Shown here piece after piece: positions 334-15,439 of a DNA stretch of 23,145 nt; the first letter of the stretch is position 1, and every line of letters starts with the position of its first letter. The position numbers and the translations under genes are program-made. The notes beneath the pieces are model-generated. The model searched no databases. It worked only from the letters and a program-made list of their open reading frames with translations, and was not told where the DNA came from. The stretch spans positions 1 to 23,145 of the IMG/VR virus record IMGVR_UViG_3300009180_000225, one strand, 5' to 3'. This DNA comes from a virus.

Positions 334-2694
334 TTAGCTTCTTGATCTTCCACTATCTGAAGGTGTCTTTCCAAATTCAACAGTTTCTACTGCAGATCCC
401 TTTAATATAACCTTATCACTTGAACTTTCAATCATAAGTGGTCCGTCATTCCTTATTACCATTGGTGCTCCGGCCTTCATGCCAGATATAACAAGGCCCT
501 TCTCACTTATTGATATCAAATAATCTGAGCTATGCGGTGCATCATCAGAATATTTTGCGCCAATCATAGATCTTGAATTTTCAGAATCATAAAATCCTTT
601 ATCTACAACATTTACTCTTAAATCAAACCTACCTTTATTAAATGTATAATCAGAATCTGGATTATCTCCAGAGGTATATGTTCCACCAACATTAACAAGA
701 ACATCTCCATCTGATTGGAATATCATACTTCTATTATTCTTATCTTTTCCTAGCCACATTACAAGTGATCCTGCCGTATCTAAAATCATACTCTTATTAT
801 CAGAATTGTCTGCACCAAGAGAAAGCTCAAGGCTTCCTTCCATATTTACATTGGCACTAACACCACCATGTGTTTGTATATTTTCAAATGTCTTATCTGT
901 AGTTAATTTTATTCCATCATCACCATATTCTGCTTTAAAATAATTACTTATTATTGGCTGCTGACTACTTTCTCCACCATAGTTTACTCCAGCAACATAG
1001 GTGTCCCCACCTGTTGATATTGCTGGTCTTGCAGGAGAGACTGCAACAGTTGAATAGAATAAATTTTTATGATCTGTTTTATTATTTGGATCATCGGCAC
1101 CAGATTTATCATTTGTTTTTGTTGAATCATACATTATTTCAAATGCAGAGTGATAAGAGTATTCACTTGCCTGCTTTGGTATTTCTGGTAGTTTTCCAAG
1201 ACTCTTTGATCCTACCATAAATTCATTTTCTCTTACAAATGCATTTGGAATGCTAATATCCGTAACATAATTTGCAATCAATCTTTCTGCAGCAGCATAA
1301 ATGTTATGATGCTTGGTTGTGTTTACTCTTATTGCTCTTTTTCCACTCGTATCTGATGATGGAAAATATGCATCACCAGCTTGATTTGCAAACCTTATTC
1401 CTGTAGTGCGAGTTAATGTAGGTGGATTGGTACCTACAATTTTTCCATCCCTATCCCTAAGATTTACAGGTATTTTTTCTTCCTTTGTTGGATGCGAAGG
1501 AGAAATTCCAATTAATCTTGGATCAGTATCTGACTTAAAATTTATGTCAGTTAAATATGGTATATTTCCAGTTGTAGATGATCTTGGAATATTTACCTTT
1601 AAAACTCCTTCTTTATCTATATCAAATACAAAGTCTTTTGATAACCTCGATTCATCTTTTGAACTTGCATTTGTAGATAACTTAAAGTGATAACCAATTC
1701 CACGTCTACTCTTCTTCACTGCCTCTTCAAATTTTAACTCTGAATCAACAGTTGGAAAGCTAATTGTTGATAATATTGGATTGTAATTTAGGTCAAAAAC
1801 AAGTCCATTTATATCAATAAAGTTTCCTCCTATTATCTCTATTAACTCTCCTTCTGATAAATAAAGACTATTTGTTGACTCTCTATGTCTAGATGATGTT
1901 GGAAGTTTTTTTGCTGCAAGCTCTGAATCTTTTATTTTTTTTAATTCATTATCAAATCCAGAAAATCCAAATTCTGTAGAAAATTCATTTATAACAAGCT
2001 TATATTCTGATAATGGTATATTTCTGTTTATTGTTTTGCTTGATATTAATTGACCAACCTTATCTCCAATCCAGAATCCAACGTCTCTAAGTTTATCATT
2101 TCTAGTTATGTCTGTAAAAAAATCAGATATTGAACTTGAGCCTGTATCATTTAAGCTTCTCTTTACTCTGCCCCAGCTCAATCTTCCGCCAGAGCCTTCT
2201 GTTAAATGATTATTTGCCAAAGAAAACATGCTATTTGTTCCAAATAGCTCTGGCATTACAAATAGTCCACTGCCTCTGCTTGTAGATAGATGAATTGAAT
2301 CATTTGTTTTTAAAAGAAATCTTGGTCCAGAATGCGCTGATAAATTCACATCACCAACATCAAGTGTTTTTGGATATGCCATGCTTCCAGCGTTCTTATC
2401 TAGTGCGCCATCAGAAGTGTCATTATAATCATCAATTTTTTGAGCATCTGATGTTAAAACTGCAATTATAACTACAGTCTCTCTGGATGTATCATGTAGA
2501 TATGCGGCAATTACCCTGGTTCCATTCATTATATTTACGATTAGACCAGAGTTTCCTGCTCCAGCTAAATTTGGAAGAGGAACGTTTGTTGACTTTTCAG
2601 CACTATTTAAATCACCATATAAAAGATCACATGTAAATTTTTCTGGATTTACATTTGTAACTATTGCTTCTCTAAAGAAAAATGGTTTGCTCAT
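334..2694 (-). CDS. Baseplate central spike-like protein (OB-fold N-terminus, beta-repeat C-terminus)
   Basis: A 786-aa protein, probably the membrane-puncturing spike or a hub-spike adaptor under the tail tube. Residues about 8-80 look like the OB-fold of gp5/VgrG-type spike proteins: an alternating beta pattern starting REAIVTNVNPEKFTCDLLYG, then proline-bounded strands and a 'GTRVIAAYL' strand. Residues about 605-690 contain short repeats spaced roughly 22 residues apart, with SMILDTAG, SMIFQSDG and flanking LGAD/LGKD segments, as expected for a beta-helical or beta-prism stalk. The middle (about 90-600) is unassigned. No lysozyme-like catalytic motif was recognised. The ATG overlaps the hub gene's TGA as ATGA (4 nt), implying translational coupling. 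The spike role is inferred from fold pattern and from position after the hub gene. Confidence 0.7.
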   Translation of the reverse strand: MSKPFFFREAIVTNVNPEKFTCDLLYGDLNSAEKSTNVPLPNLAGAGNSGLIVNIMNGTRVIAAYLHDTSRETVVIIAVLTSDAQKIDDYNDTSDGALDKNAGSMAYPKTLDVGDVNLSAHSGPRFLLKTNDSIHLSTSRGSGLFVMPELFGTNSMFSLANNHLTEGSGGRLSWGRVKRSLNDTGSSSISDFFTDITRNDKLRDVGFWIGDKVGQLISSKTINRNIPLSEYKLVINEFSTEFGFSGFDNELKKIKDSELAAKKLPTSSRHRESTNSLYLSEGELIEIIGGNFIDINGLVFDLNYNPILSTISFPTVDSELKFEEAVKKSRRGIGYHFKLSTNASSKDESRLSKDFVFDIDKEGVLKVNIPRSSTTGNIPYLTDINFKSDTDPRLIGISPSHPTKEEKIPVNLRDRDGKIVGTNPPTLTRTTGIRFANQAGDAYFPSSDTSGKRAIRVNTTKHHNIYAAAERLIANYVTDISIPNAFVRENEFMVGSKSLGKLPEIPKQASEYSYHSAFEIMYDSTKTNDKSGADDPNNKTDHKNLFYSTVAVSPARPAISTGGDTYVAGVNYGGESSQQPIISNYFKAEYGDDGIKLTTDKTFENIQTHGGVSANVNMEGSLELSLGADNSDNKSMILDTAGSLVMWLGKDKNNRSMIFQSDGDVLVNVGGTYTSGDNPDSDYTFNKGRFDLRVNVVDKGFYDSENSRSMIGAKYSDDAPHSSDYLISISEKGLVISGMKAGAPMVIRNDGPLMIESSSDKVILKGSAVETVEFGKTPSDSGRSRS

Positions 2695-5600
2695 GCTTTA
2701 TTGTAACTCATTAGCAATTTTACTCTAGATTGATCTAATTCAACTATGCCTATTTCAATAACCTTCTCATATGATATATCTGCACCACTAAATAGTGTGC
2801 CTATGTTTTGAAGCAAGTCGTCCATCTCAAGCCAAGTTGATTGTGATGGACCTCCTCTTGGAAGAGCATTATTTAGATTATCCATACTATTTTCAATCAA
2901 TTCACTAATATTATCTGAGTTCTTTCCAATTAATTTGGAGGTTTCTTTTAGTTTTTTTGGAGAAAAGCACTTAAATGAATTTGATGTGCTTGTTCCAAAA
3001 TAAGATTCTTTGCCATTCTCCTTTTCTTTATCTGTTCTTAAATCTCTTTTCATATTTACAAGCTGCAATATTATTTGAGATTCTTTTACCTTTACTGCAG
3101 GAACACCATTTGGAAGAAACATTGTCTTAAGTTCCTTGTTCATTCCAGATGTCATATTTATATTAAATATATTCTGCAATGGTGATAGTGAATTTGCTAT
3201 TAAGTCATCTCCAAGTGCAGAATCTAGCTTTTGAGATAGCATAACTGGATTCTGAAATAACTCAGAAACAACCAGCATTTTATTTGTTATTTCTTCATTT
3301 TCTGATTCATCTTTTGTAAATCCTCTAATTAGAAGAAATCTATTTGGAGTCATTATTCCATTTGAAATATCTGTAACCATATTATAAAACTTGACCATAT
3401 TATTCTTATGGCTTAACAAATACTCTATATTTGAACTTGTTATTTCTGGAGATCTTGGGAATCTAAGATTACAATCTGGCATTAATGGCTTATAACTACT
3501 ATCTCCATAGTTAGATCTTTTTACAAAATAAGAGCCTTGCTTCATCATATCCTTTGAGTATGATTGCCCAATTATATCTACTGGAGTTGGAAGATAAATA
3601 CCTGGTGGATGACCATTTATTAGTGTTAAGCTTGTGTCAAATGTAGAGCCATATGTAAAGCTATGTGATACGGCGCTTACATAAAATAGAAGGCCTTTAG
3701 ATGGAATATATACAGTATCACCGGGCTGATAATATTCATTTCCTGACAACTGTATTCCTGCAGAGAATATTACGGCTCTTTGTATTGCAAGATGTTGCAA
3801 TGCAAGTGGCTTTGCCTGAGTTTCTGCGTCTGATATAAATGGAGCATCTTGTATTGGCTTTGATTTATATCCATATTGTCTCCATAAGTCATAATCTACT
3901 GCTCCAGCCCACTGTATAAGGTTTTCGCCACCAGTAACGGCCTTCATCTTATCGTTTATAAGTGGGGTACTTCCAAATACATCTATTCTTGTTACTTCTG
4001 GTTCACTCTCTCTTACATCATAACTCTTTATTTGCTCATCATAAATAACAAATCTTCTTCCTGATCCTGGCCCAAGTAAATTTCTCGTATCATCATCAAT
4101 TAGGTGATCAAATAATGAGCCTTTTCCAGCAGAGCCCGTTAGAAAGTCTTTTCCTGCATTTATTGATCTGTTTGTATATTTTCCACTCTGATATAGAAAA
4201 TTTCCAAATGATTTTATACCTTTATAAAAACTATTATTTGAATCAATTCCTCTTTTCATCAGCTCATCTACCTGATCATCTTCAAGTATATTTCCATTGC
4301 CATCTGTAAACCCTGATGTCAAGCTTTGCTGTATAGATTGAAGCTCTGCCTCTTTTTCTTTATTTTTTTGCAATATAGAAATGAGAGAATTTCTTTTTGA
4401 AACAGAAATTGAAATATTATTAAATACAGACTCTAATCTTGTTTGTATTGTATCAAAATATTGTGAAGAAAGGCTGGTTTTCTTTTTTAGATCAAATAGT
4501 ATATCATCTTGTGTAAATGTGTCTCCATTAGATCTAAGGCCAGATCCTGGATCGTATCCAGTTTCCTCCCTAAATGTTTTAACAAGCTTATTTATAAGAT
4601 CTGCAATATTTTGGTTAGTTAATCCTATATCTGATATTGCAACACTTTGTGCGGCAGTTGGAGTTCCGACTGGAGTATTTGCAACATTTTTATTTGGATT
4701 TAATAATGAGTCAAATGCATAGTCATATACTGTTGTTTGCCCTGCTCCAAATTGAAATTCTCTTGATATTTCGTCAAAATTTCCAATTTGAGTCTCTGTA
4801 TCTCCATCTAATATATCACCATCCTCTGCAGTTCCAAGCTTTAGTCCAAATTTGATTCCAGTTTTATTCTGAAGATTATATGAAAATTTATCAATTGAAA
4901 AATTATTTATATCGCCTATTCCTGGTATATTTTTTGGATCAAGACTTGATTCTATTCCGCTAAAGTTTATTCCAAAAAAATCAAAAGATTTCTCTCTTTT
5001 TCTTGGAACACCTGGAATTAGACCTGAGTCTGGGAATCTTCCAAGTAACATTGCAAGTATACATATCCTGACGTTTAAATAATGAATTTCTAATTTTAAA
5101 GAAGATATTCTATCATTAAACATCTTAAATAAGAAGTCTGGAACTATTGTTTTTTTTGTTTTCTCCTGATAATTGTAAAGAGCATTTAAAACAGACAACG
5201 GAGTCTTATTATATTGCGGAGGTCTTATCTCAAGATGTCCCTGAGTATTACAGAAGAACTCCATCATGGTAAGTCCTGCTGCCTCCTTACATCTTGTATA
5301 TGTATCCATATAGCTTCCCTGAAATAACTTAAATCCTGATGTTTTTAAGTTTAATATATAAGCTTTTATATCTGGATTGATATCATACTGGTCTGAAACT
5401 ATAAGCAGGTTTTGATCTCTATTTAGCCTTACATCTTCTATTCTTCTTGTCGCCGCAACCTTCATCATTGCTCTAGTCAAATCATGATTAGACTCTAGAT
5501 TTCCATTATTTTTTATTGCCTTATTAACACCAAATATATTGAAATTTGTATTAAATAAATCCTCTGAACTTATTGCACCGCTTGAAGCTGTACCATATGA

Positions 5601-7697
5601 TTCGCTAACCATATTTTGAATTGATATATTTATTGTCTCTAGCTCTGCACTCAATATTTGAATAATTGATGCAGAATTTTGATCACCTTTTAAAATTGCT
5701 ATTTTCTTTTTTATTTCATTTTTTCTATTTCTTAATATACTTATTTTTGATCTATTTTCTTGTATTGTAAACGTATCTCCGCTAAGTCTTCCAATTGTCT
5801 GTTCAGACATTGTTATCATTCTGAATGGCTTAAAGTTTCCATAAAATGGATTTTGTTTCTTTATTGAATCCATAACAAATGATAGTGCATCACTTGGGCT
5901 AAAAGCATTATTCTGCCTCATTCCATTCATTGCATCTATTGCCTGCTGAGTAAATGTTTCTATATTATATGGCTGTCCTGTTATCATTACACTTATAACA
6001 TTTGCAACATCTAGATTTGATACCACGCTATTTGTTACGGTAAAGCCGTATTGCTGTCTAGATGTTGCTGCGGTTGCAGCTGCAATATTTGCGTCTCCAT
6101 CGCCACTTGGATTATATGGACTAGTTAGAGCAAGAACACCAGTTCTCCATCTATAGACAAGTCCAGATGGATGCTGAACAATTTTTGCTCCATACATTGA
6201 GCCTGGACCAGAGTATTGTCCTTGAAAAATGTTTGTTTCATTTGCATTTTGACCATTTAATAATCCAGAATCAAATGATAAAAGACCAGATTTTAATAGC
6301 CTTTTATTTTCAGATAAAAGTTCAAGATCTTGTCTTCTTAATGTTTCTGATGATGAAATTGTCTTTAAATCATATGGTGTTAAAGGATCTTCAAGTGGTG
6401 CTTTTGGATCCATTAGTCCTGGTTCTTCCATAAATCTTACATTTGTTAGCCAGCCCATATTATCTTGACAGCTTATACTTATATTAGATCTATCTGGAGA
6501 ATAAGATTCAGAAACTCCTTTTACATAGCCGCCAAATACATGCTGCATTGTAAATGAGTTATTTGCATATTTTCTGAGACTCTTATATGTTTCACTTGAT
6601 ATATTTTGATTTGTATATAGTTTTCTTTCTGCCTCAAGCATTATATCATCTACTTCTAGGTAAGATGAGTCAAATTCATGCTCATTAAAATTATTGCCAA
6701 ATACTGACTTATTACTTGCTATAAATATATGTACTCCATCGCCTACATTGACCATCCACTTTCCAAGATAGAAAGTTCTCATTCTATCTCTTATATAGTC
6801 TATATCAATTGTAGAATCTAGATTACCTAAGCCACCAAGCTCAAATGCAGAAGATACAGTAAGCATTGGATCAACATATTCTCCTCCAAGTCCAGAATAT
6901 GCCAAATCATTTAATAGACCAAGCGCACCATATAGAGACTCTTCTATTGCTGCCTCAATATCATCTTCTATAATATTCATTATTCTATGAGGGTCCATAA
7001 TTGATATTGATGCACCCTTTGAATCTGAATTAACACCAACAGAGGTGCTAAAGTTTGTAAATGTACAAAGCTCAATTACTCCTGTTCCAGGTCCTGTACC
7101 ATAATTAGTTACATCATCTGGATCCACTACCCAAGTTGTTTTTGTGTTTGCGCTAGAGAATGCATTTCTTCTAATAATCTTTATAACGTCATCTATTGAT
7201 GCGGCCATTCCAGCAGCAACACCAAAACTGCCAAGAAAAGAAAGTACCTGTGATGTATTTGAGGTGCCTGGAAGTTGCAGATATTTTGTTGACATAATTA
7301 GATCTGAAAGTAGTGAGAAATTAACATCTCCATACTCTTCATAAAACTTTTCTAATTTTGTAAGTGACTCATATGATCTAAGCTGTGCAACTTTCAAGGC
7401 AAACAATGCTTTGGTAGCCCTTAGTAACATTTTCTCCGTAGAATCCATCCACCTAAGATCATTTGTTGCCTTAAAGGTTGAAAAGGCCTTCTTTTTGATC
7501 AGAATGCTTGCAGTAGGATTTGATGCAACTATTGCTCTAGTCTTTTTTCTTGTTTCTGTTGCATTATTTTGATTTATAAAGAGAGATACACCAGACTCAA
7601 CAAAATGAAGATCTGCTTTTCCTCTTACTACCTGATCAAGTGTTTTATCTATAGTGCCTTTTATATTTTGGAGTAATGGCTTATATGAGTATGACAT
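2691..7697 (-). CDS. Giant baseplate hub-like virion protein
   Basis: A 1668-aa protein, the largest in the window, lying between a hub/tube-junction gene and the spike gene. Visible regions: a helical N-terminus (about 1-170); a beta-rich region with 'SISIMDPHRIMNIIEDDIEA' near 227-247; a second beta region near 305-330 (FYLGKWMVNVGDGVHIFIAS); a lysine/isoleucine-rich coiled coil near 640-700; 'EFFCNTQGHLEIRPPQYN' near 810-828; and a C-terminal hub-like beta segment near 1315-1350 (GDTVYIPSKG, then VSAVSHSFTYG). The last resembles the gp27/gpD-type tail-hub barrel, where a GDxxxI strand precedes a V..V.H.....G..T strand. Typical hub proteins are about 350-500 aa, so this looks like a hub expanded by extra domains. 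An AGGT lies 8 nt before the ATG. No peptidase or lysozyme signature was recognised. Structural role likely; exact role inferred. Confidence 0.65.
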   Translation of the reverse strand: MSYSYKPLLQNIKGTIDKTLDQVVRGKADLHFVESGVSLFINQNNATETRKKTRAIVASNPTASILIKKKAFSTFKATNDLRWMDSTEKMLLRATKALFALKVAQLRSYESLTKLEKFYEEYGDVNFSLLSDLIMSTKYLQLPGTSNTSQVLSFLGSFGVAAGMAASIDDVIKIIRRNAFSSANTKTTWVVDPDDVTNYGTGPGTGVIELCTFTNFSTSVGVNSDSKGASISIMDPHRIMNIIEDDIEAAIEESLYGALGLLNDLAYSGLGGEYVDPMLTVSSAFELGGLGNLDSTIDIDYIRDRMRTFYLGKWMVNVGDGVHIFIASNKSVFGNNFNEHEFDSSYLEVDDIMLEAERKLYTNQNISSETYKSLRKYANNSFTMQHVFGGYVKGVSESYSPDRSNISISCQDNMGWLTNVRFMEEPGLMDPKAPLEDPLTPYDLKTISSSETLRRQDLELLSENKRLLKSGLLSFDSGLLNGQNANETNIFQGQYSGPGSMYGAKIVQHPSGLVYRWRTGVLALTSPYNPSGDGDANIAAATAATSRQQYGFTVTNSVVSNLDVANVISVMITGQPYNIETFTQQAIDAMNGMRQNNAFSPSDALSFVMDSIKKQNPFYGNFKPFRMITMSEQTIGRLSGDTFTIQENRSKISILRNRKNEIKKKIAILKGDQNSASIIQILSAELETINISIQNMVSESYGTASSGAISSEDLFNTNFNIFGVNKAIKNNGNLESNHDLTRAMMKVAATRRIEDVRLNRDQNLLIVSDQYDINPDIKAYILNLKTSGFKLFQGSYMDTYTRCKEAAGLTMMEFFCNTQGHLEIRPPQYNKTPLSVLNALYNYQEKTKKTIVPDFLFKMFNDRISSLKLEIHYLNVRICILAMLLGRFPDSGLIPGVPRKREKSFDFFGINFSGIESSLDPKNIPGIGDINNFSIDKFSYNLQNKTGIKFGLKLGTAEDGDILDGDTETQIGNFDEISREFQFGAGQTTVYDYAFDSLLNPNKNVANTPVGTPTAAQSVAISDIGLTNQNIADLINKLVKTFREETGYDPGSGLRSNGDTFTQDDILFDLKKKTSLSSQYFDTIQTRLESVFNNISISVSKRNSLISILQKNKEKEAELQSIQQSLTSGFTDGNGNILEDDQVDELMKRGIDSNNSFYKGIKSFGNFLYQSGKYTNRSINAGKDFLTGSAGKGSLFDHLIDDDTRNLLGPGSGRRFVIYDEQIKSYDVRESEPEVTRIDVFGSTPLINDKMKAVTGGENLIQWAGAVDYDLWRQYGYKSKPIQDAPFISDAETQAKPLALQHLAIQRAVIFSAGIQLSGNEYYQPGDTVYIPSKGLLFYVSAVSHSFTYGSTFDTSLTLINGHPPGIYLPTPVDIIGQSYSKDMMKQGSYFVKRSNYGDSSYKPLMPDCNLRFPRSPEITSSNIEYLLSHKNNMVKFYNMVTDISNGIMTPNRFLLIRGFTKDESENEEITNKMLVVSELFQNPVMLSQKLDSALGDDLIANSLSPLQNIFNINMTSGMNKELKTMFLPNGVPAVKVKESQIILQLVNMKRDLRTDKEKENGKESYFGTSTSNSFKCFSPKKLKETSKLIGKNSDNISELIENSMDNLNNALPRGGPSQSTWLEMDDLLQNIGTLFSGADISYEKVIEIGIVELDQSRVKLLMSYNKA

Positions 7698-8638: not shown

Positions 8639-10522
8639 TTAATTACGAATATGAGCTATGTTTACTGTAAATCCAGATGCACTTAGAGCGCCTGATGTAA
8701 CTTCTGCCCTCAAATCTTTTGGCGCAGTAAGAACCACATTTAGAGTTTTGGGGCTATTATCAAGATCTTTTGAAACGTTTTTGTTGCCAACTGTCTGTGA
8801 GCCTGGCTGACCAGGATCGGTTGGCTCTCCAGCTCCAGATTCTGCCTTTTTTGCTGCATCTCCTGCAACACCAACGAGCATGTCTAATGAGAGTTGTTTT
8901 GAGTCTCTTTTACCCTTTAATTCTTCGTTACCAGAATCTTCAATTAATTGATTTGATAAATCGCTTATTTCACTTATTAATTTCATAACCTGATCTTCCA
9001 TCGGCTTTCCGTAACTTACTTTTGCTAAGTTTACCTGTTCCTGAAGAAGAATAAGCGATTTATCAATTGATTGAGATATCTTTTGCTGAACATCAAGTAC
9101 TCTATCATTTCCTTTTATTGCATTTGAAATTTGCTCATCTATTTTTTGTACAAGCTCATCATCACCAGAGGCCATTGCTTCATCTTGCTGTTGCAAATAT
9201 TCTAATACTCTACTTTGAGTTGTAATATCTGATATTCCATAAACAGATCCTAGCATCATCTGTTGCTGTGTAAATCTTGACTGAGTAGAGGCATCTCCTG
9301 CGGCAGCCTGATTTACATTTACTATCTCACCACCAGTTGTTGATGTTAGCATCTCTCTAATTCCAGAAGAAAGATTTCTTGCCAATTCAGCTTGAGAGCC
9401 AGGCTCCTGGTTTAACATCATTGCCTGCATTTGAATACTTGGATTCAAAACACCACCTGGACCACCCATCGCACCTTCAAATCCGCCCTTCATTGCAGTT
9501 ACATAGGCAAGTGCTGGATTATTTACTATTCCTAATAACGACTTAGAAAATTCAGAAGAAAGATCTTTTGCCTGTTCTATACCAAGACCAACTTCTTTTA
9601 CAGAATCTGCAAAACCCTTTAATATTGGACGGCCAAAATCCATAGTTGTTCCCATTCTTTGAAATCCGCCTACCACTCCCTCAAGTGATTGAGTTACTTC
9701 ATCTAACCTAAGGCCTGTTTCCGATGAAAGCTCTTGCGCTCCAGCCATCATTTTCATTGAATCTTCAGTTGATAGGCCGGTTTTTCTTATCATATCAGCC
9801 ATTTTTCTTGAATATTCAGAAACATCCATTCCCATTGCTTTTGCCTGTAGAGTCATCATCTGCACATTATTCATTCCCTGGCTAGATACATTTGATGCTC
9901 TAGATAATTCATCCATAGATATTCCTGCTGCTTGCAGATTTTGTACGGCTAACCTAAACTCTTCTCCACCAAAATATATGCCTGATTGTGCAAACTCAGA
10001 ATTTGTTGCTATTAGATTTTGAAATGCTTTATTATTTTTCTCTGCTTGGTCAAAAGTCATTCCAAGTGCTGCAGCATATTTAAACTGTGTAGCTATATTC
10101 TCTCTTGTACCCTTGTCGGCACCATCGTATGCTTTTGCAAAATTTTCTGTTGCCTGTGCTGCAGTTTTTGCTAATTCAGCTGTTTTATCAAAGGCACCCA
10201 ATATTGGATCAAGAATATTTCCTGCTATTGGAATTCCTTTTACTCCTGCTGCAAATTTTTCAAAAGAAGCTCTTGCAGACTCTATTGAGTCAATTAGTCC
10301 ACCAAAAGAATTTGTATTTGATATAGACAGCTTTGAAAATGCCTCAAGACCTGTAGCAGCAGATCCTATTGCTCCAGAAAAGTTATTTGCACTACGAACG
10401 GCACTTTCCAATCCCCTTTCAAGTGCTGCATTTGCATCTTTTCCAGTTCTTATTGCTTCTTCATAATCCTTGATTGCATCTTTAAATCCTGCAACAAATT
10501 TACTTATATCTTGTGCGCTCAT
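8639..10522 (-). CDS. Tail tape measure protein
   Basis: A 627-aa, predominantly helical protein, rich in Ala, Gly, Gln, Ser and Met, encoded straight after the chaperone locus, which is the standard position for a tape measure. Helical stretches run through most of residues 1-330, with Gly/Pro-containing breaks such as GVKGIPIAGNILDPILGAF near 93-111, the only moderately hydrophobic stretch. A Gly/Met-rich linker lies near 345-375, further helices near 420-540, a Pro/Gly/Gln-rich linker near 565-590, and a beta-prone C-terminus (TLNVVLTAPKDLRAEV). No lytic transglycosylase or peptidase motif was seen. At the common estimate of about 1.5 angstrom per residue, the tail would be near 95 nm. AGGGATGA lies about 10 nt before the ATG. 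The gene begins 3 nt after the T-ORF stop, so it is probably co-translated with it. Confidence 0.88.
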   Translation of the reverse strand: MSAQDISKFVAGFKDAIKDYEEAIRTGKDANAALERGLESAVRSANNFSGAIGSAATGLEAFSKLSISNTNSFGGLIDSIESARASFEKFAAGVKGIPIAGNILDPILGAFDKTAELAKTAAQATENFAKAYDGADKGTRENIATQFKYAAALGMTFDQAEKNNKAFQNLIATNSEFAQSGIYFGGEEFRLAVQNLQAAGISMDELSRASNVSSQGMNNVQMMTLQAKAMGMDVSEYSRKMADMIRKTGLSTEDSMKMMAGAQELSSETGLRLDEVTQSLEGVVGGFQRMGTTMDFGRPILKGFADSVKEVGLGIEQAKDLSSEFSKSLLGIVNNPALAYVTAMKGGFEGAMGGPGGVLNPSIQMQAMMLNQEPGSQAELARNLSSGIREMLTSTTGGEIVNVNQAAAGDASTQSRFTQQQMMLGSVYGISDITTQSRVLEYLQQQDEAMASGDDELVQKIDEQISNAIKGNDRVLDVQQKISQSIDKSLILLQEQVNLAKVSYGKPMEDQVMKLISEISDLSNQLIEDSGNEELKGKRDSKQLSLDMLVGVAGDAAKKAESGAGEPTDPGQPGSQTVGNKNVSKDLDNSPKTLNVVLTAPKDLRAEVTSGALSASGFTVNIAHIRN

Positions 10523-10525
10523 ACT

Positions 10526-10840
10526 TTAAATATCATCCCTAATCAACTTATTTAAATTAATAGACCTAAGTGCAGAGTCATCTTCATTTATATTTGAGTT
10601 TGCCTCTCTTAATCTTTTAATTGCATCAATTAGTGGATTATTTTTAAATTCATTATTTCTTGCCGATTCTATAAATTCTTCTGCTTCCTTTATTGAATCT
10701 TCTTTCTGGCTTTCTCTAAACTCTTTTGCCTTCTTTACACCTTCGTAATTTGAAAATGCAGCATGATAATCAAGGTATGATAGGAATTTTTCAAGCTCTC
10801 TTTCTTTATCTTGAAGAATCATTAACGCGTACCATGACAT
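10526..10840 (-). CDS. T-domain ORF as a conventional gene call (part of the G-T fusion)
   Basis: This 104-aa reading frame begins MSWYALMILQDKERE and is what a simple gene finder would report. It is probably not initiated independently. No Shine-Dalgarno lies at a useful distance before its ATG, the same frame is open upstream to the slippery site at 10939, and the upstream codons carry the conserved-looking T-domain start. Residues 1-80 are charged helix (EKF, KKAKEFRESQKED), and the C-terminus ends NLNKLIRDDI. Treat it as the C-terminal exon-like part of the frameshift product. Independent translation from 10840 remains possible but is less likely. Confidence 0.6.
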   Translation of the reverse strand: MSWYALMILQDKERELEKFLSYLDYHAAFSNYEGVKKAKEFRESQKEDSIKEAEEFIESARNNEFKNNPLIDAIKRLREANSNINEDDSALRSINLNKLIRDDI

Positions 10841-11448
10841 TTGAATTGATGTTATTCCATTGAAAATAGGATCATCAACTCTGCATTTCCATATTTTGCA
10901 AAGCTCCCACCTTAGGTAGTGGTTGGAGCTTTTTATTATTTTTTTAGGTTTTCTTCCGTAAGAGACTTAGATGTTTCTTCTGTAAGTTTATCTACTTCAG
11001 AAAATAAATAATCAAATACAGATTGCTGAAGATTCATTACTATGCTTAGCCTTGAGGTTATGTTATCCTCTTCAACATAAGAAGATATATTTTTTCCGTT
11101 TATCTTTTTTATTGAAAGTGCTAAAATTGCTTTTTTAAAGAAAAAAACTCGCTCTACTTCTGGAAGTTTTATTGACTCTTTAAATATTTCATCTTGTTCT
11201 CTTGTAGATAGAGTTCCTATTGTAAATGAAAAATCTCCAAGCCTAACTTCTTTTGTACTTGCACCGAGAAATATAAGCTCTTCAAGTCCTTTTAATTCCT
11301 TTGGAACTGAAAAAGACTTCTTTTGTGCTTCTTCTGCCTCTTCAAATCTCTTATTTATTAGATTTGGATCTAAATTTGGATTTGACGAAACAGCATTTTT
11401 TAATGAACCAATATCATGTGAGGAAACTACTTTTGAACCAGGTCTCAT
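10526..11448 (-). CDS. Tail assembly chaperone G-T fusion made by -1 frameshift
   Basis: Predicted 307-aa frameshift product: 170 residues of the G protein, then 137 residues read in the -1 frame. Ribosomes that slip on A AAA AAA at 10945-10939 read ATA next (starting at 10939), and the -1 frame is open for 33 codons before joining the ORF with the ATG at 10840. I translated this bridge by hand and found no stop. It contains 'DDPIFNGITSIQMSWYALMI', which resembles the W/DP/F/Q.WY pattern of T domains of phage tail chaperones. The T part is rich in Lys/Glu and helical, as expected for tape measure binding. By analogy with lambda gpG/gpGT, G coats the tape measure while GT recruits tube subunits. 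Frame continuity, slippery site and hairpin are seen directly; function comes from family knowledge and position. Confidence 0.88.
10900..10945 (-). promoter_or_regulatory. Programmed -1 ribosomal frameshift signal (slippery heptamer plus stem-loop)
   Basis: On the minus strand the G gene ends CTA AAA AAA TAA. The heptamer A AAA AAA (10945-10939) fits X XXY YYZ exactly in the zero frame. After a 6-nt spacer (10938-10933), AAAGCTCCAACC (10932-10921) pairs with GGTGGGAGCTTT (10911-10900) around a 9-nt loop: 8 bp, one mismatch, then 3 bp. The stop codon directly after the heptamer would add pausing at the site. All three parts of a classical -1 signal are present, and the shifted frame is open. 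Confidence 0.88.
10936..11448 (-). CDS. Tail assembly chaperone G (unshifted product)
   Basis: A 170-aa protein encoded between the tail tube and the tape measure gene, the product made when ribosomes do not shift. It begins MRPGSKVVSSHDIGSLKN. A basic, disordered-looking N-terminus is followed near 55-105 by a beta/alpha core (KEVRLGDFSFTIGTLSTREQ, then VERVFFFKKAILAL), a pattern of chaperones that read 'v.lg.....i..Ls..e...i......', as in many phage G-type proteins. The C-terminus is acidic and helical (FDYLFSEVDKLTEET). A GGAG Shine-Dalgarno lies 8 nt before the ATG. It ends ...NLKK with tandem TAA TAA. The two lysine codons are part of the slippery heptamer. It follows the tube gene's terminator, so its level can be set separately from the tube. 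Confidence 0.85.
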   Translation of the reverse strand: MRPGSKVVSSHDIGSLKNAVSSNPNLDPNLINKRFEEAEEAQKKSFSVPKELKGLEELIFLGASTKEVRLGDFSFTIGTLSTREQDEIFKESIKLPEVERVFFFKKAILALSIKKINGKNISSYVEEDNITSRLSIVMNLQQSVFDYLFSEVDKLTEETSKSLTEENLKK

Positions 11449-11527: not shown

Positions 11528-12142
11528 CTAGTATGCTGCGCTGATTAGGCCTGGATAGTCTAGGGAGCCTCTTGTTCCATTTGCTCCAGAGTCTGCTGCA
11601 AGCTCTGCAATATCAAGCTGGGTACTTGGAATCTGTCTACCGCCGCCTGTACCCTGACTTAGTGCTATTGCCTCTCCGCCTCTTATTGTTGACACGTATT
11701 CGCAATCTACAGATGCGCTCTGTGATATTGTATAATCGTTTGCAGTGTAAGAGATTGAAAGATTGTTAAACCAGCAGTTGTGATAGGTTGTTATTATGGC
11801 ATCATTTCCGGTTCCAGTGAACTGATCAATAACAACTATATCGAATGGAATTCTCTGTGATTGAAGATTTCTAAATCCACGAGAGAATGCTTCTGGTAGG
11901 GAAAGTCCATCAAAGTACATTCTGTCTATCTGCAAAGATACTTTTGTTGGTGACTGTGGAACTAGCTCTATAATGCCATCTGTTCCAACTTCATTGATTG
12001 GTTTAATTGATCTTTGCTGGGTCTCTCTGAATGACTGAATTGCGCCTACAGGCTCATTTTCAACCATGATTATGATCTGGGTAGAAAGTGAAGTCTTTGT
12101 AGTTGAGTCTAGATTAGATCCAGTTCTTGGATATGATGCCAT
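11528..12142 (-). CDS. Tail tube protein
   Basis: A 204-aa protein encoded directly after the sheath, in the standard sheath-tube order. Its size is close to contractile-tail tube proteins (about 140-200 aa). Residues about 20-150 alternate beta strands typical of the tube fold: 'QIIIMVENEPVGAIQSFR' leading into QQRSIKPINEVGTDG (the 'N.vG...' turn common in tube proteins), VSLQIDRMYFDGLSL, PFDIVVIDQF and the closing TISQSASVDCEYV. The C-terminal 45 residues are Gly/Ser/Ala-rich and probably extended. AGGAGA lies 8 nt before the ATG. Base composition is less AT-rich than in the fibre genes, consistent with high expression. The gene ends in TAG and is followed by a strong terminator. Confidence 0.85.
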   Translation of the reverse strand: MASYPRTGSNLDSTTKTSLSTQIIIMVENEPVGAIQSFRETQQRSIKPINEVGTDGIIELVPQSPTKVSLQIDRMYFDGLSLPEAFSRGFRNLQSQRIPFDIVVIDQFTGTGNDAIITTYHNCWFNNLSISYTANDYTISQSASVDCEYVSTIRGGEAIALSQGTGGGRQIPSTQLDIAELAADSGANGTRGSLDYPGLISAAY

Positions 12143-12160: not shown

Positions 12161-15100
12161 TTATACTATTCCAACTTCGATATCAATGAATACATAGTTG
12201 ATTGGGTAACTTGGTGTAAAGCGGAGGTAAACGTTCCACTGTCTTGGATCTACCTTGTCTTTTTCAACCCTAATGTTCTTGAAGTCTGTTATTAGACCCT
12301 GAGAAACAAGTGCGCTCATGATGCTCTTAACTTTTGCGGTCATTAGACCCTGAGTATTTGCATCCTCAACGGTTCCTACGAATGACATCATTGAATCTCT
12401 AAGGACCTTCTTTACTCTGTCTCTAATGAAGATTATCGATATCTCTTCATCTTCGACAAATCCAGACTGGCTTGTTGTACGTCCTGCAAGAACCTTTCCG
12501 CCACCTGTTATTGGCTGAACTACTGTTGCGCCCTCTCCACCGAGCTGATCTAGTATCTGCTTGCGGAATACTCTGTCTCTTCCTATTGAGAAGCCTGTAA
12601 GCTCCTTAAAGGTTAGTGGTACGGCTACGTTCTGTGTTCCAGATAGATATCCTGCGGCTGCTGCAGCCATATAGAATCCGTTTACAAAGCTATTTGTTCC
12701 AGATACATTTCTTATTATCTGGTCTGGGTAGAAGAATACTGCTCTGTTGCTATTGTAGTTATCAGAAAGCTGGTAGTTTGCAAGATCTTCTGTATTTCCA
12801 GAGAGAACTTCGGATACATCATCGCCCTGAATTCCTTCAAGAACGCCTATATCCTCTATTGCTACTTCGGTCTGTCCAAGAAGAGCTGGAACAGTTAGGC
12901 CTCTTTGAGCACCAATGAGAGCAACTCTTTCTTTCTGATTTGCTATTGTACTCATTGTCTCACAGTGAGATACTGCTGCGCGGAAAATGCCTGAGATATT
13001 CTGAGTTGGGAGTGGAACTACAATCTGGCACTCTGAAGCTTCAATTGTCTCAAATGCCTCAAACCAATTTGTATCAAAGAATGATGCATCTTTTTCGTCA
13101 ATGTATGAAACTCTAAGTCCATCGCCTGGCTTTAATGTCTTGCTATCAACGAGATCCTTGTGAAGTAGAATCTTTGTTGATAGGTCTGCTGTATTTGCTG
13201 AGTCTTTTACAAAAAATGATATATTTGTTGCATCATTACCAAGTGTATTGAATGAGCCGGTTGATGGAATCAAAGTGACGGTATTATCATTTATTACAGA
13301 GTCTATTGTAAATTCAACAACTCCAAGACCAGTAGAGCTTAAGAGATAATCACTTATATCATCTTTTGATGTTAATGTTGTTGTTGGGGTTTCAATTGAC
13401 TGAATTACAATTGTTCTTTCACTACCAGGAATTGCATCTACAGCATCAAAATTTACTTCGTATGATGTAAATTGTCCAGATGATGTTATAAGCTCTGCAC
13501 CCATACCCATTCCAGTAATTTCAACATCTGTGTTGACTACTGTATATGAATATGAATACTGTGGGCTTGTTATAAATGAAAGCTGTGCTGTCTCTGATTC
13601 AAACTGTGAGTTATAGAAATTAACCTTATTTGGGAAGATCTGTGTTTCTACTCCACCTCTGACTACAAAGAAGTTTACTCCAGTTGTGCCGTCTGGTCTA
13701 CCTGCTCCAAGTCCAGATGCTGGCTTTGGAATTATGAATGAAAGATCGTCTACCTGACAGTCTGCAGAAACTCCTCCGCAAGCTGGGAAGCCTCCAATAC
13801 CACGAGAATTCTTCTCTGTGTATAGTGTTGCAGATGATCTTCTTGGTACTGCTGGCTTGCACTGAATTGCCAATACTCCAGGTGCTCCATTCTCAAGGGC
13901 CATCTGTGCGCCAAGTGCCAATGTATTTGTTAGTGATGGTGTTCCATGTTTTGCAAATAGATCATTTGCACTTACAAAGTACTCTGCATCATTTATTGTT
14001 GTCTCTGGAATATAAAGTGCGGATAGTTTATCGCCCCTCTTTAATACTCTTGATCTTACATCAATAAAGAATTTATCACCAACTGCAAATGGAATGCTTG
14101 GCCCATCAAGTGATGATTCAAGTCCTTCTCTTATGCCAAATACAAGAATTCCATTTGTCTCTAGTAAGCTGAATGTGATATCGCCACCATCAACTGCAAT
14201 TCCTGTTGATCCTGAGGATAATAGGTTTATTGGATATGCTGCACTAGTGTCGCCAAGTAAATGTACTCTTACTCTACGAGAAGATGTAACTGATTTAATT
14301 ACATAATATCCTGGAGCTGGTCCACCGCAAAGAAGAAGTACCTTTCCAATGTCTCTGCTTGAGAAGTAGCCAGCTGTTACTGGTGTTCCTGCTGAATCAT
14401 GTTGAACAGATACATCATCAATAAATATATCATTTGCTCTTATTGACCAAGCAACATTTGATAGTGAAGAGTCAAGAGTATCTGTCTCTACAACAATTGT
14501 TGTCTTTAAAGTGCCAGAATTATATGATAGTGATACAATTCTTAAACCATCATCTGGTGTGTAGCCATCTGCTGTAATGCAGAGGTAATCGCCAACAAGA
14601 ACCTGTCCTGGTGAAACCAGGTCGTCATCAACCTGGAATCTATCGGTTGTTCCTGATGTTGCATCATTTGCGGAATCATATGCTGCAGATCCTAATCCAT
14701 AGACTGAATCATCTGCAACAACATATGAGTCTGATGATATGGAATTTGTTCCAGGAATTGCACCATGTACTCTATTGAACATTGCTGGATTTGTTCCGTG
14801 GAAAAGTAGTGGTGCGCCAGCTGAGTCTTTTATTTGTCCTGAAACTGCACCAGATACTGTAAATGTTGAAAGTCCTGGTATTGGATTTCCTGCAGAATCT
14901 CTTACTACGGAAACACAACGAACTGTCCATCTTTCGGCTGGAGCATTGCTATCTACAATTGAGATTAGCTCATAAGAGCCACACTGCTCTTCGGCTATTG
15001 TTCCATTTCCTACATTTGTAGTTGCTGCTGAGTATCTTTTTCCGTTCTGATCGCCAATTGAAGCACCCTGAAGCTCAATACATCCAGTTTCTGGATCTAT

Positions 15101-15439
15101 TCTATAGTCAAATTTGCCAGAAAAAGAGCTTTCATCAACGACGCTTTCTGTGCCGTAAAGCTCAGTTCCGTTTAGGAATAGTCTTGTTCTACCAACAACA
15201 ACTGGTGATTCTGCAAGCTGAAAATACTTGCTGTCGCCATTGCCGGTTGGACTACAAGCAGAAGAGCCGTCCTGACCTTCGCCAAAAGCAGAGTCAACAA
15301 TGACTTCTTCCTTTATACCTTCGCCCATAATGCATGCAACACGAAGACCGCCAGGAATTGAAACGCCACGAGTGACAACTCTATCTCTTGCAAATGTTCC
15401 GGGCTGTACGTAGCCGCTTATTCCTGGAATGTTAGCCAT
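12161..15439 (-). CDS. Contractile tail sheath protein (unusually long)
   Basis: The main structural protein of the contractile outer tail. The N-terminus (MANIPGISGYVQPGTFARDR) and the C-terminal region (about 800-1092) match the sheath family: 'GSERTI' and 'ERVALIGAQRG' regions, then AVFFYPDQIIRN, NGFYMAAAAAGYLSG, LTGFSIGRDR, and the closing 'RQWNVYLRFTPSYPINYVFI' strands that form the sheath C-terminal domain. At 1092 aa it is far longer than T4 gp18 (659 aa) and most relatives. The extra length lies between about residues 45 and 780, in beta-rich, Gly/Ser/Asp-rich insertions that probably decorate the tail surface. GGAGGT lies 8 nt before the ATG, the strongest Shine-Dalgarno in the window. 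The gene is less AT-rich than its neighbours. It is separated from the upstream gene by 51 nt in which I see no clear promoter. Confidence 0.93.
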   Translation of the reverse strand: MANIPGISGYVQPGTFARDRVVTRGVSIPGGLRVACIMGEGIKEEVIVDSAFGEGQDGSSACSPTGNGDSKYFQLAESPVVVGRTRLFLNGTELYGTESVVDESSFSGKFDYRIDPETGCIELQGASIGDQNGKRYSAATTNVGNGTIAEEQCGSYELISIVDSNAPAERWTVRCVSVVRDSAGNPIPGLSTFTVSGAVSGQIKDSAGAPLLFHGTNPAMFNRVHGAIPGTNSISSDSYVVADDSVYGLGSAAYDSANDATSGTTDRFQVDDDLVSPGQVLVGDYLCITADGYTPDDGLRIVSLSYNSGTLKTTIVVETDTLDSSLSNVAWSIRANDIFIDDVSVQHDSAGTPVTAGYFSSRDIGKVLLLCGGPAPGYYVIKSVTSSRRVRVHLLGDTSAAYPINLLSSGSTGIAVDGGDITFSLLETNGILVFGIREGLESSLDGPSIPFAVGDKFFIDVRSRVLKRGDKLSALYIPETTINDAEYFVSANDLFAKHGTPSLTNTLALGAQMALENGAPGVLAIQCKPAVPRRSSATLYTEKNSRGIGGFPACGGVSADCQVDDLSFIIPKPASGLGAGRPDGTTGVNFFVVRGGVETQIFPNKVNFYNSQFESETAQLSFITSPQYSYSYTVVNTDVEITGMGMGAELITSSGQFTSYEVNFDAVDAIPGSERTIVIQSIETPTTTLTSKDDISDYLLSSTGLGVVEFTIDSVINDNTVTLIPSTGSFNTLGNDATNISFFVKDSANTADLSTKILLHKDLVDSKTLKPGDGLRVSYIDEKDASFFDTNWFEAFETIEASECQIVVPLPTQNISGIFRAAVSHCETMSTIANQKERVALIGAQRGLTVPALLGQTEVAIEDIGVLEGIQGDDVSEVLSGNTEDLANYQLSDNYNSNRAVFFYPDQIIRNVSGTNSFVNGFYMAAAAAGYLSGTQNVAVPLTFKELTGFSIGRDRVFRKQILDQLGGEGATVVQPITGGGKVLAGRTTSQSGFVEDEEISIIFIRDRVKKVLRDSMMSFVGTVEDANTQGLMTAKVKSIMSALVSQGLITDFKNIRVEKDKVDPRQWNVYLRFTPSYPINYVFIDIEVGIV

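Follow-up and report, generated by a model that had tools for sequence, protein, structure and literature searches.

A lambda G/GT-type tail assembly chaperone gene with a predicted -1 frameshift in an uncultivated myovirus related to Bacillus phage G

We are highly confident that the locus described here encodes the G/GT tail assembly chaperone of an uncultivated myovirus with a tail module related to that of Bacillus phage G, and that a slip near the end of its first reading frame yields a G-T fusion of 307 aa. The locus lies in the window, by which we mean the whole 23,145-nt stretch of DNA that was analysed (IMG/VR record IMGVR_UViG_3300009180_000225, positions 1 to 23,145). What is known in this arrangement is the lambda G/GT-type -1 frameshift, which is already annotated in the phage G homologue and is widely conserved among long-tailed phages (PMC5009743). 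The new element is modest, namely a family-wide hairpin behind the slip site that appears to have been rebuilt in the course of evolution.

The window reads, on the minus strand throughout, in the order sheath, tube, G, T and tape measure. The G ORF (10936-11448), with a GGAG ribosome-binding site upstream, encodes by standard decoding a putative tail assembly chaperone of 170 aa, and its 3' end reads AAC CTA AAA AAA TAA TAA. The heptamer A_AAA_AAA (10945-10939) lies there in the slippery phase, immediately before the stop codon TAA; it is followed by a 6-nt spacer, TAATAA (10938-10933), and then by a proposed stimulatory hairpin of 11 pairs with a 9-nt loop (10932-10900). From the heptamer onwards the -1 frame is open as far as a TAA at 10528-10526, running first through a bridge of 33 codons (10939-10841; IIKSSNHYLRWELCKIWKCRVDDPIFNGITSIQ), which is read only after a -1 shift and carries the near-invariant RWELCKIWKC.VDDP, and then through the rest of the T domain (10840-10526). 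The latter begins MSWYALM at the ATG at 10840 and equals the separate 104-aa ORF that a gene finder would call. G and T together give 170 + 137 = 307 aa, and the gene is flanked by a tail tube gene (11528-12142, phrog_985) and a tape measure gene (8639-10522, phrog_167, E 1.6e-5), the start of the latter lying a few nucleotides past the T stop. The original prediction had described this same layout, from the heptamer abutting the stop to the length of the fusion and its place between tube and tape measure, and all of it was confirmed; its warning that the calling of two ORFs would omit 33 residues also holds, the bridge being absent from the 104-aa call.

In the mechanism that we infer, from the occurrence and the efficiency of the shift through its stimulation by the hairpin to the roles of the products in tail assembly, most ribosomes would translate G and stop at the TAA. 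In a minority, held by the hairpin 6 nt downstream with Lys-tRNAs on AAA AAA, the tRNAs would slip back by one base, and these ribosomes would go on to read ATA ATA AAA and so forth, via the bridge into T, producing the 307-aa fusion. On the lambda model, the tape measure protein would be coated by G together with the G portion of G-T, the T part would recruit tube subunits, and the ratio of G to G-T set by the slip would govern tail assembly.

Searches for homologues returned 30 non-identical IMG/VR relatives and Bacillus phage G, which together with the window make up a set of 32 distinct loci, related to one another and hence not 32 independent events. Copies identical around the site were removed, the nearly identical L054 and L072 were counted once, and the contig of L081 holds only the last few G codons. 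Most relatives came from T queries with patterns lying in the bridge, which biases the set toward loci with an open bridge. A search with G alone returned only four loci, all of which possess the bridge; the search with bridge and T returned 13 loci, and the set was enlarged by profile searches. The heptamer was absent from all of the queries. With the window G and bridge plus T as tblastn queries, no match was obtained among 50,697 phage records, phage G being reached by tblastn only from the divergent relative L065, and no proviral relatives turned up when 84,980 species genomes of bacteria and archaea were scanned.

Taken by itself, such a heptamer means little: elsewhere in the G ORFs, in-phase X_XXY_YYZ sequences (Y = A/T) turn up at about 1.1% of codons (57/5117), and several others lie within the G ORF of the window. 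The site is nevertheless taken as real, since all 32 loci have an in-phase heptamer at the same place, either abutting the G stop or standing one codon ahead of it. It takes three forms, all obeying X_XXY_YYZ: A_AAA_AAA in most loci, A_AAA_AAC in L017, L057, L059, L060, L062 and phage G, and T_TTA_AAA in L064, L075, L083, L085 and L086, where the A7 site has been lost and the slip site lies 3 nt upstream. In L067 a T_TTA_AAA overlaps an A_AAA_AAA, which is plausible as an intermediate between the two site types. We also observed that the 0-frame stop, TAA or TAG, adjoins the heptamer in every A_AAA_AAA and A_AAA_AAC locus (10938-10936 in the window); never having drifted downstream, this abutting stop may be part of the signal. 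In some bacteria the dnaX gene likewise has a 0-frame stop directly after its slip site (PMC5009743).

The bridge is open in every relative found, and this, together with the in-phase heptamer in all of them, supports the frameshift that had been predicted; among these relatives, none had a closed bridge and separate ORFs with ribosome sites of their own. The bridge had moreover been suspected of being a segment of T, and in each of the relatives it proved to be the best-conserved stretch of T, the invariant columns of a 20-member alignment falling mainly at residues 10-26 (RWELCK.W.C...D..F), that is, within the bridge. Substitutions among eight close relatives are distributed over the first, second and third codon positions of the -1 frame as 156/96/355, and as 102/70/243 outside the hairpin, a pattern from which, together with the invariant columns, the bridge is judged to be under protein-level selection in that frame. 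It is extremely improbable, then, that G and T are two separate genes, with the bridge an untranslated spacer and T started from the ATG at 10840, either through reinitiation or with the help of a ribosome site of its own. That ATG does open a 104-aa ORF in the window and its close relatives; it is retained, however, at T residue 34, in only 9 of the 32 loci; the first 60 T-frame codons of L017 and L080 contain no ATG at all; and the Shine-Dalgarno before 10840 is poor (GGA at best), as against the GGAG of G. Because the supposed spacer evolves as coding sequence and the ATG is kept in 9/32 loci, a separately initiated T is not the conserved product.

Two further explanations concern the A7 run at the site. 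Homopolymers are common places of indel error, and a sequencing error or a pseudogene might have split what is really a single G-T gene; yet the same break at an in-phase heptamer recurs in the 30 other metagenomic loci, no two of them identical, and in an isolate, Bacillus phage G, and among the relatives recovered none was found with one uninterrupted G-T frame. As the break recurs in independent contigs and an isolate, we regard an artefact of this kind as practically excluded. Slippage by RNA polymerase on the A7 run, rather than by the ribosome, could produce the same fusion from a slipped mRNA. The bacterial cases, however, are described for runs of about nine A or T (PMC5009743), and since the A_AAA_AAC and T_TTA_AAA sites of relatives contain runs of only six and four A, which fit tandem tRNA slippage and not polymerase slippage, we consider transcriptional slippage very improbable; the conserved downstream hairpin, the usual stimulator of ribosomal shifts, also speaks against it. 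Ribosomal frameshifting accordingly remains our reading of the locus in what follows.

The hairpin of the window pairs 10932-10925 and 10923-10921 with 10911-10909 and 10907-10900. Its minimum free energy is -15.8 kcal/mol, which corresponds to z = -3.0 against dinucleotide shuffles and to z = -4.7 to -5.9 against synonymous-codon shuffles, none of which folds as well. Over the 32 loci, the stretch behind the heptamer has a mean z of -3.4 against synonymous-codon shuffles, with 27 loci below -2, in comparison with a mean of -0.2 and 30/463 below -2 for 463 other windows from the same G and T genes. Of the two elements expected to be conserved in relatives, the heptamer is kept in all loci (32/32) and the hairpin in most (27/32), no significant structure being present in L055, L056, L060, L064 and phage G.

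At least two hairpin layouts exist, and their arms are non-homologous. In the group of the window, AAAGCTCC, which encodes K-S-S, forms the 5' arm and GGGAGCTTT, which encodes W-E-L, the 3' arm; in the group of L054, L072, L080 and L017 the same 3' arm pairs instead with GAGCTCCC or AAGCTCCC, coded E/K-L-P, and the 5' arm sits two bases nearer the heptamer. Relatives of the L065/L059/L082 type form a different hairpin, GGAGCC...GGCTCC, over other codons, and in them the W-E-L codons have for the most part shifted to GAA/AAA and TTA/TTG. The distance between hairpin and heptamer is kept while the sequence and the codon register of the hairpin change. Compensatory changes were seen from C-G to U-A (A4; L051) and from G-C to U-A (A5; L063), although covarying base pairs are few, with two in A5 and one in A4, where near-invariant arms weaken the shuffle control (68 of 500). 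A hairpin that exceeds synonymous shuffles in most loci, and does so in two non-homologous layouts, points to a selected stimulator, and selection for a hairpin at a fixed distance is the simplest reading of these patterns, the hairpin then presumably stimulating the shift.

That the hairpin is instead an intrinsic terminator for the opposite strand has to be weighed, for read on the plus strand it is terminator-shaped and is followed by TTTTTATTATTTTTTT. All long ORFs of the window that match a family, however, lie on the minus strand, the distance to the heptamer is held in the manner just described, and the hairpin was not flagged in a terminator scan, which permits loops only up to 8 nt. 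We consider this quite improbable, and it would bear on the hairpin only and not on the frameshift.

A_AAA_AAG is far more prone to shifting in E. coli than A_AAA_AAA or A_AAA_AAC (PMC5009743), and a conserved hairpin would fit a need to lift such a weak heptamer to a useful level. On balance we think it likely that the -1 shift in this phage-G-related lineage depends on a selected 3' hairpin that was rebuilt at least once, its distance kept but its sequence and codon register new, in contrast to tailed phages that are said to need no stimulator; lineages devoid of the hairpin may use another element, such as the GAGGAGG upstream in L060. In the clade of L055, L056 and L060 (no significant hairpin), purine-rich, Shine-Dalgarno-like stretches were noted upstream of the heptamer, and in L060 (heptamer 2971-2977) GAGGAGG ends 7 nt before A_AAA_AAC. 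By-eye inspection of the 24 nt before the heptamer showed that a common Shine-Dalgarno-like upstream stimulator is not general.

The assignment of G rests on sequence as well as on a predicted structure. Of 20 family members, 11 have a G that matches PHROG tail assembly chaperones (PHROG 2792/2992; best E 1.6e-5). No Pfam family matches G. The core of its AlphaFold model has a pLDDT above 90, and the two PDB entries that match the model best are 2OB9, the HK97 tail assembly chaperone (VIA-align Z 7.9), and 3KLU, YqbN (Z 7.6); the other PDB rows are unrelated at Z 3.7 and below, except a PICI protein at 4.8. Both structures share the predicted fold of the G core, residues about 53-159, at only 10-15% sequence identity and with Z just under 8, so that the fold match alone is not decisive; the modelled G is nonetheless, in our judgement, a tail assembly chaperone fold. 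T gave weak and inconsistent matches to PHROGs, and its best BFVD fold match is Bacillus phage G gp182.

The closest named homologue is the tail assembly chaperone gp181/gp182 of Bacillus phage G (NC_023719), annotated as a joined CDS. Both G and T are homologous to it (hhalign E 4.7e-15 and 4.8e-8, respectively), gp181 ends in A_AAA_AAC followed by TAG, with the same adjacency of heptamer and stop and a -1 shift as in the window, and the order of sheath, tube, chaperone and tape measure is shared. The tube protein of the window is homologous to gp180 (tblastn E 4e-14 against the phage G region) and the C-terminus of its sheath matches at E 3e-10, so homologues of sheath, tube, gp181 and gp182 are all present in the same order. 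Phage G differs in its shorter G (115 aa), its longer T (252 aa), a hairpin that is only weak, and a larger tape measure; where the proteins can be compared they are about 25% identical.

Comparison with lambda G/GT (PMC5009743) brings out the position between the tube and tape measure genes on the same strand, an in-phase slippery heptamer and -1 shift near the end of G, a shifted frame open through a T without a conserved start of its own, and a G recognised as tail chaperone through PHROG 2792/2992, 2OB9 and 3KLU, and homology to gp181. The likeness to lambda is one of layout, and the heptamers differ. The lambda slip site is G_GGA_AAG. A general -1 frameshift of long-tailed phages was reportedly described by Xu, Hendrix and Duda in 2004. 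Mycobacterium phage ScoobyDoobyDoo (cluster C type), a myovirus with a related sheath, has a joined chaperone CDS (genes 122/123) between sheath/tube and tape measure and, by inspection, a site of the G_GGA_AAA type; its G is barely similar and its T not recognisably similar by hhalign. The dnaX gene of E. coli (A_AAA_AAG) shares with the window an A-rich heptamer, a short spacer and a simple 3' hairpin, but it is a cellular gene with another product logic, and its upstream Shine-Dalgarno-like stimulator is not general here.

Several observations were made on the surroundings of the gene. Only a few bases separate the T stop from the start of the tape measure gene (10528-10520, minus strand; TAAAGTATG), which suggests coupled translation of the tape measure after the frameshifted product. 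Between tube and G there is a terminator-like hairpin, AAAAATAAGCCG...CGGCTTATTTTTTT (11511-11460, minus strand), with AGTATAAT and the G ribosome site directly 3' of it; hairpin, T-run and (A/G)GTATAAT are kept in close relatives, the hairpin differing in sequence, and the element may serve to restart transcription after the abundant tube gene, ahead of G, T and tape measure. The sheath (12161-15439, minus strand; Phage_sheath_1C and phrog_2839) is 1092 aa long, compared with 579 codons for the annotated sheath of phage G, and sheath profiles match only about its C-terminal fifth, so that large additional domains may be present. A 1668-aa protein (2691-7697, minus strand) is encoded downstream of the tape measure gene; the phage G region searched gave no convincing match for it.

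These results correct the annotation for an uncultivated lineage, in which one G and one G-T product would be made, the latter including the 33 residues that a gene finder omits, and they tie the tail module of this lineage to that of Bacillus phage G. More broadly, the 32 related sites, with their three heptamers and two hairpin layouts, constitute a natural set for studying the trade-off between sequence and structure that would set the ratio of G to G-T.
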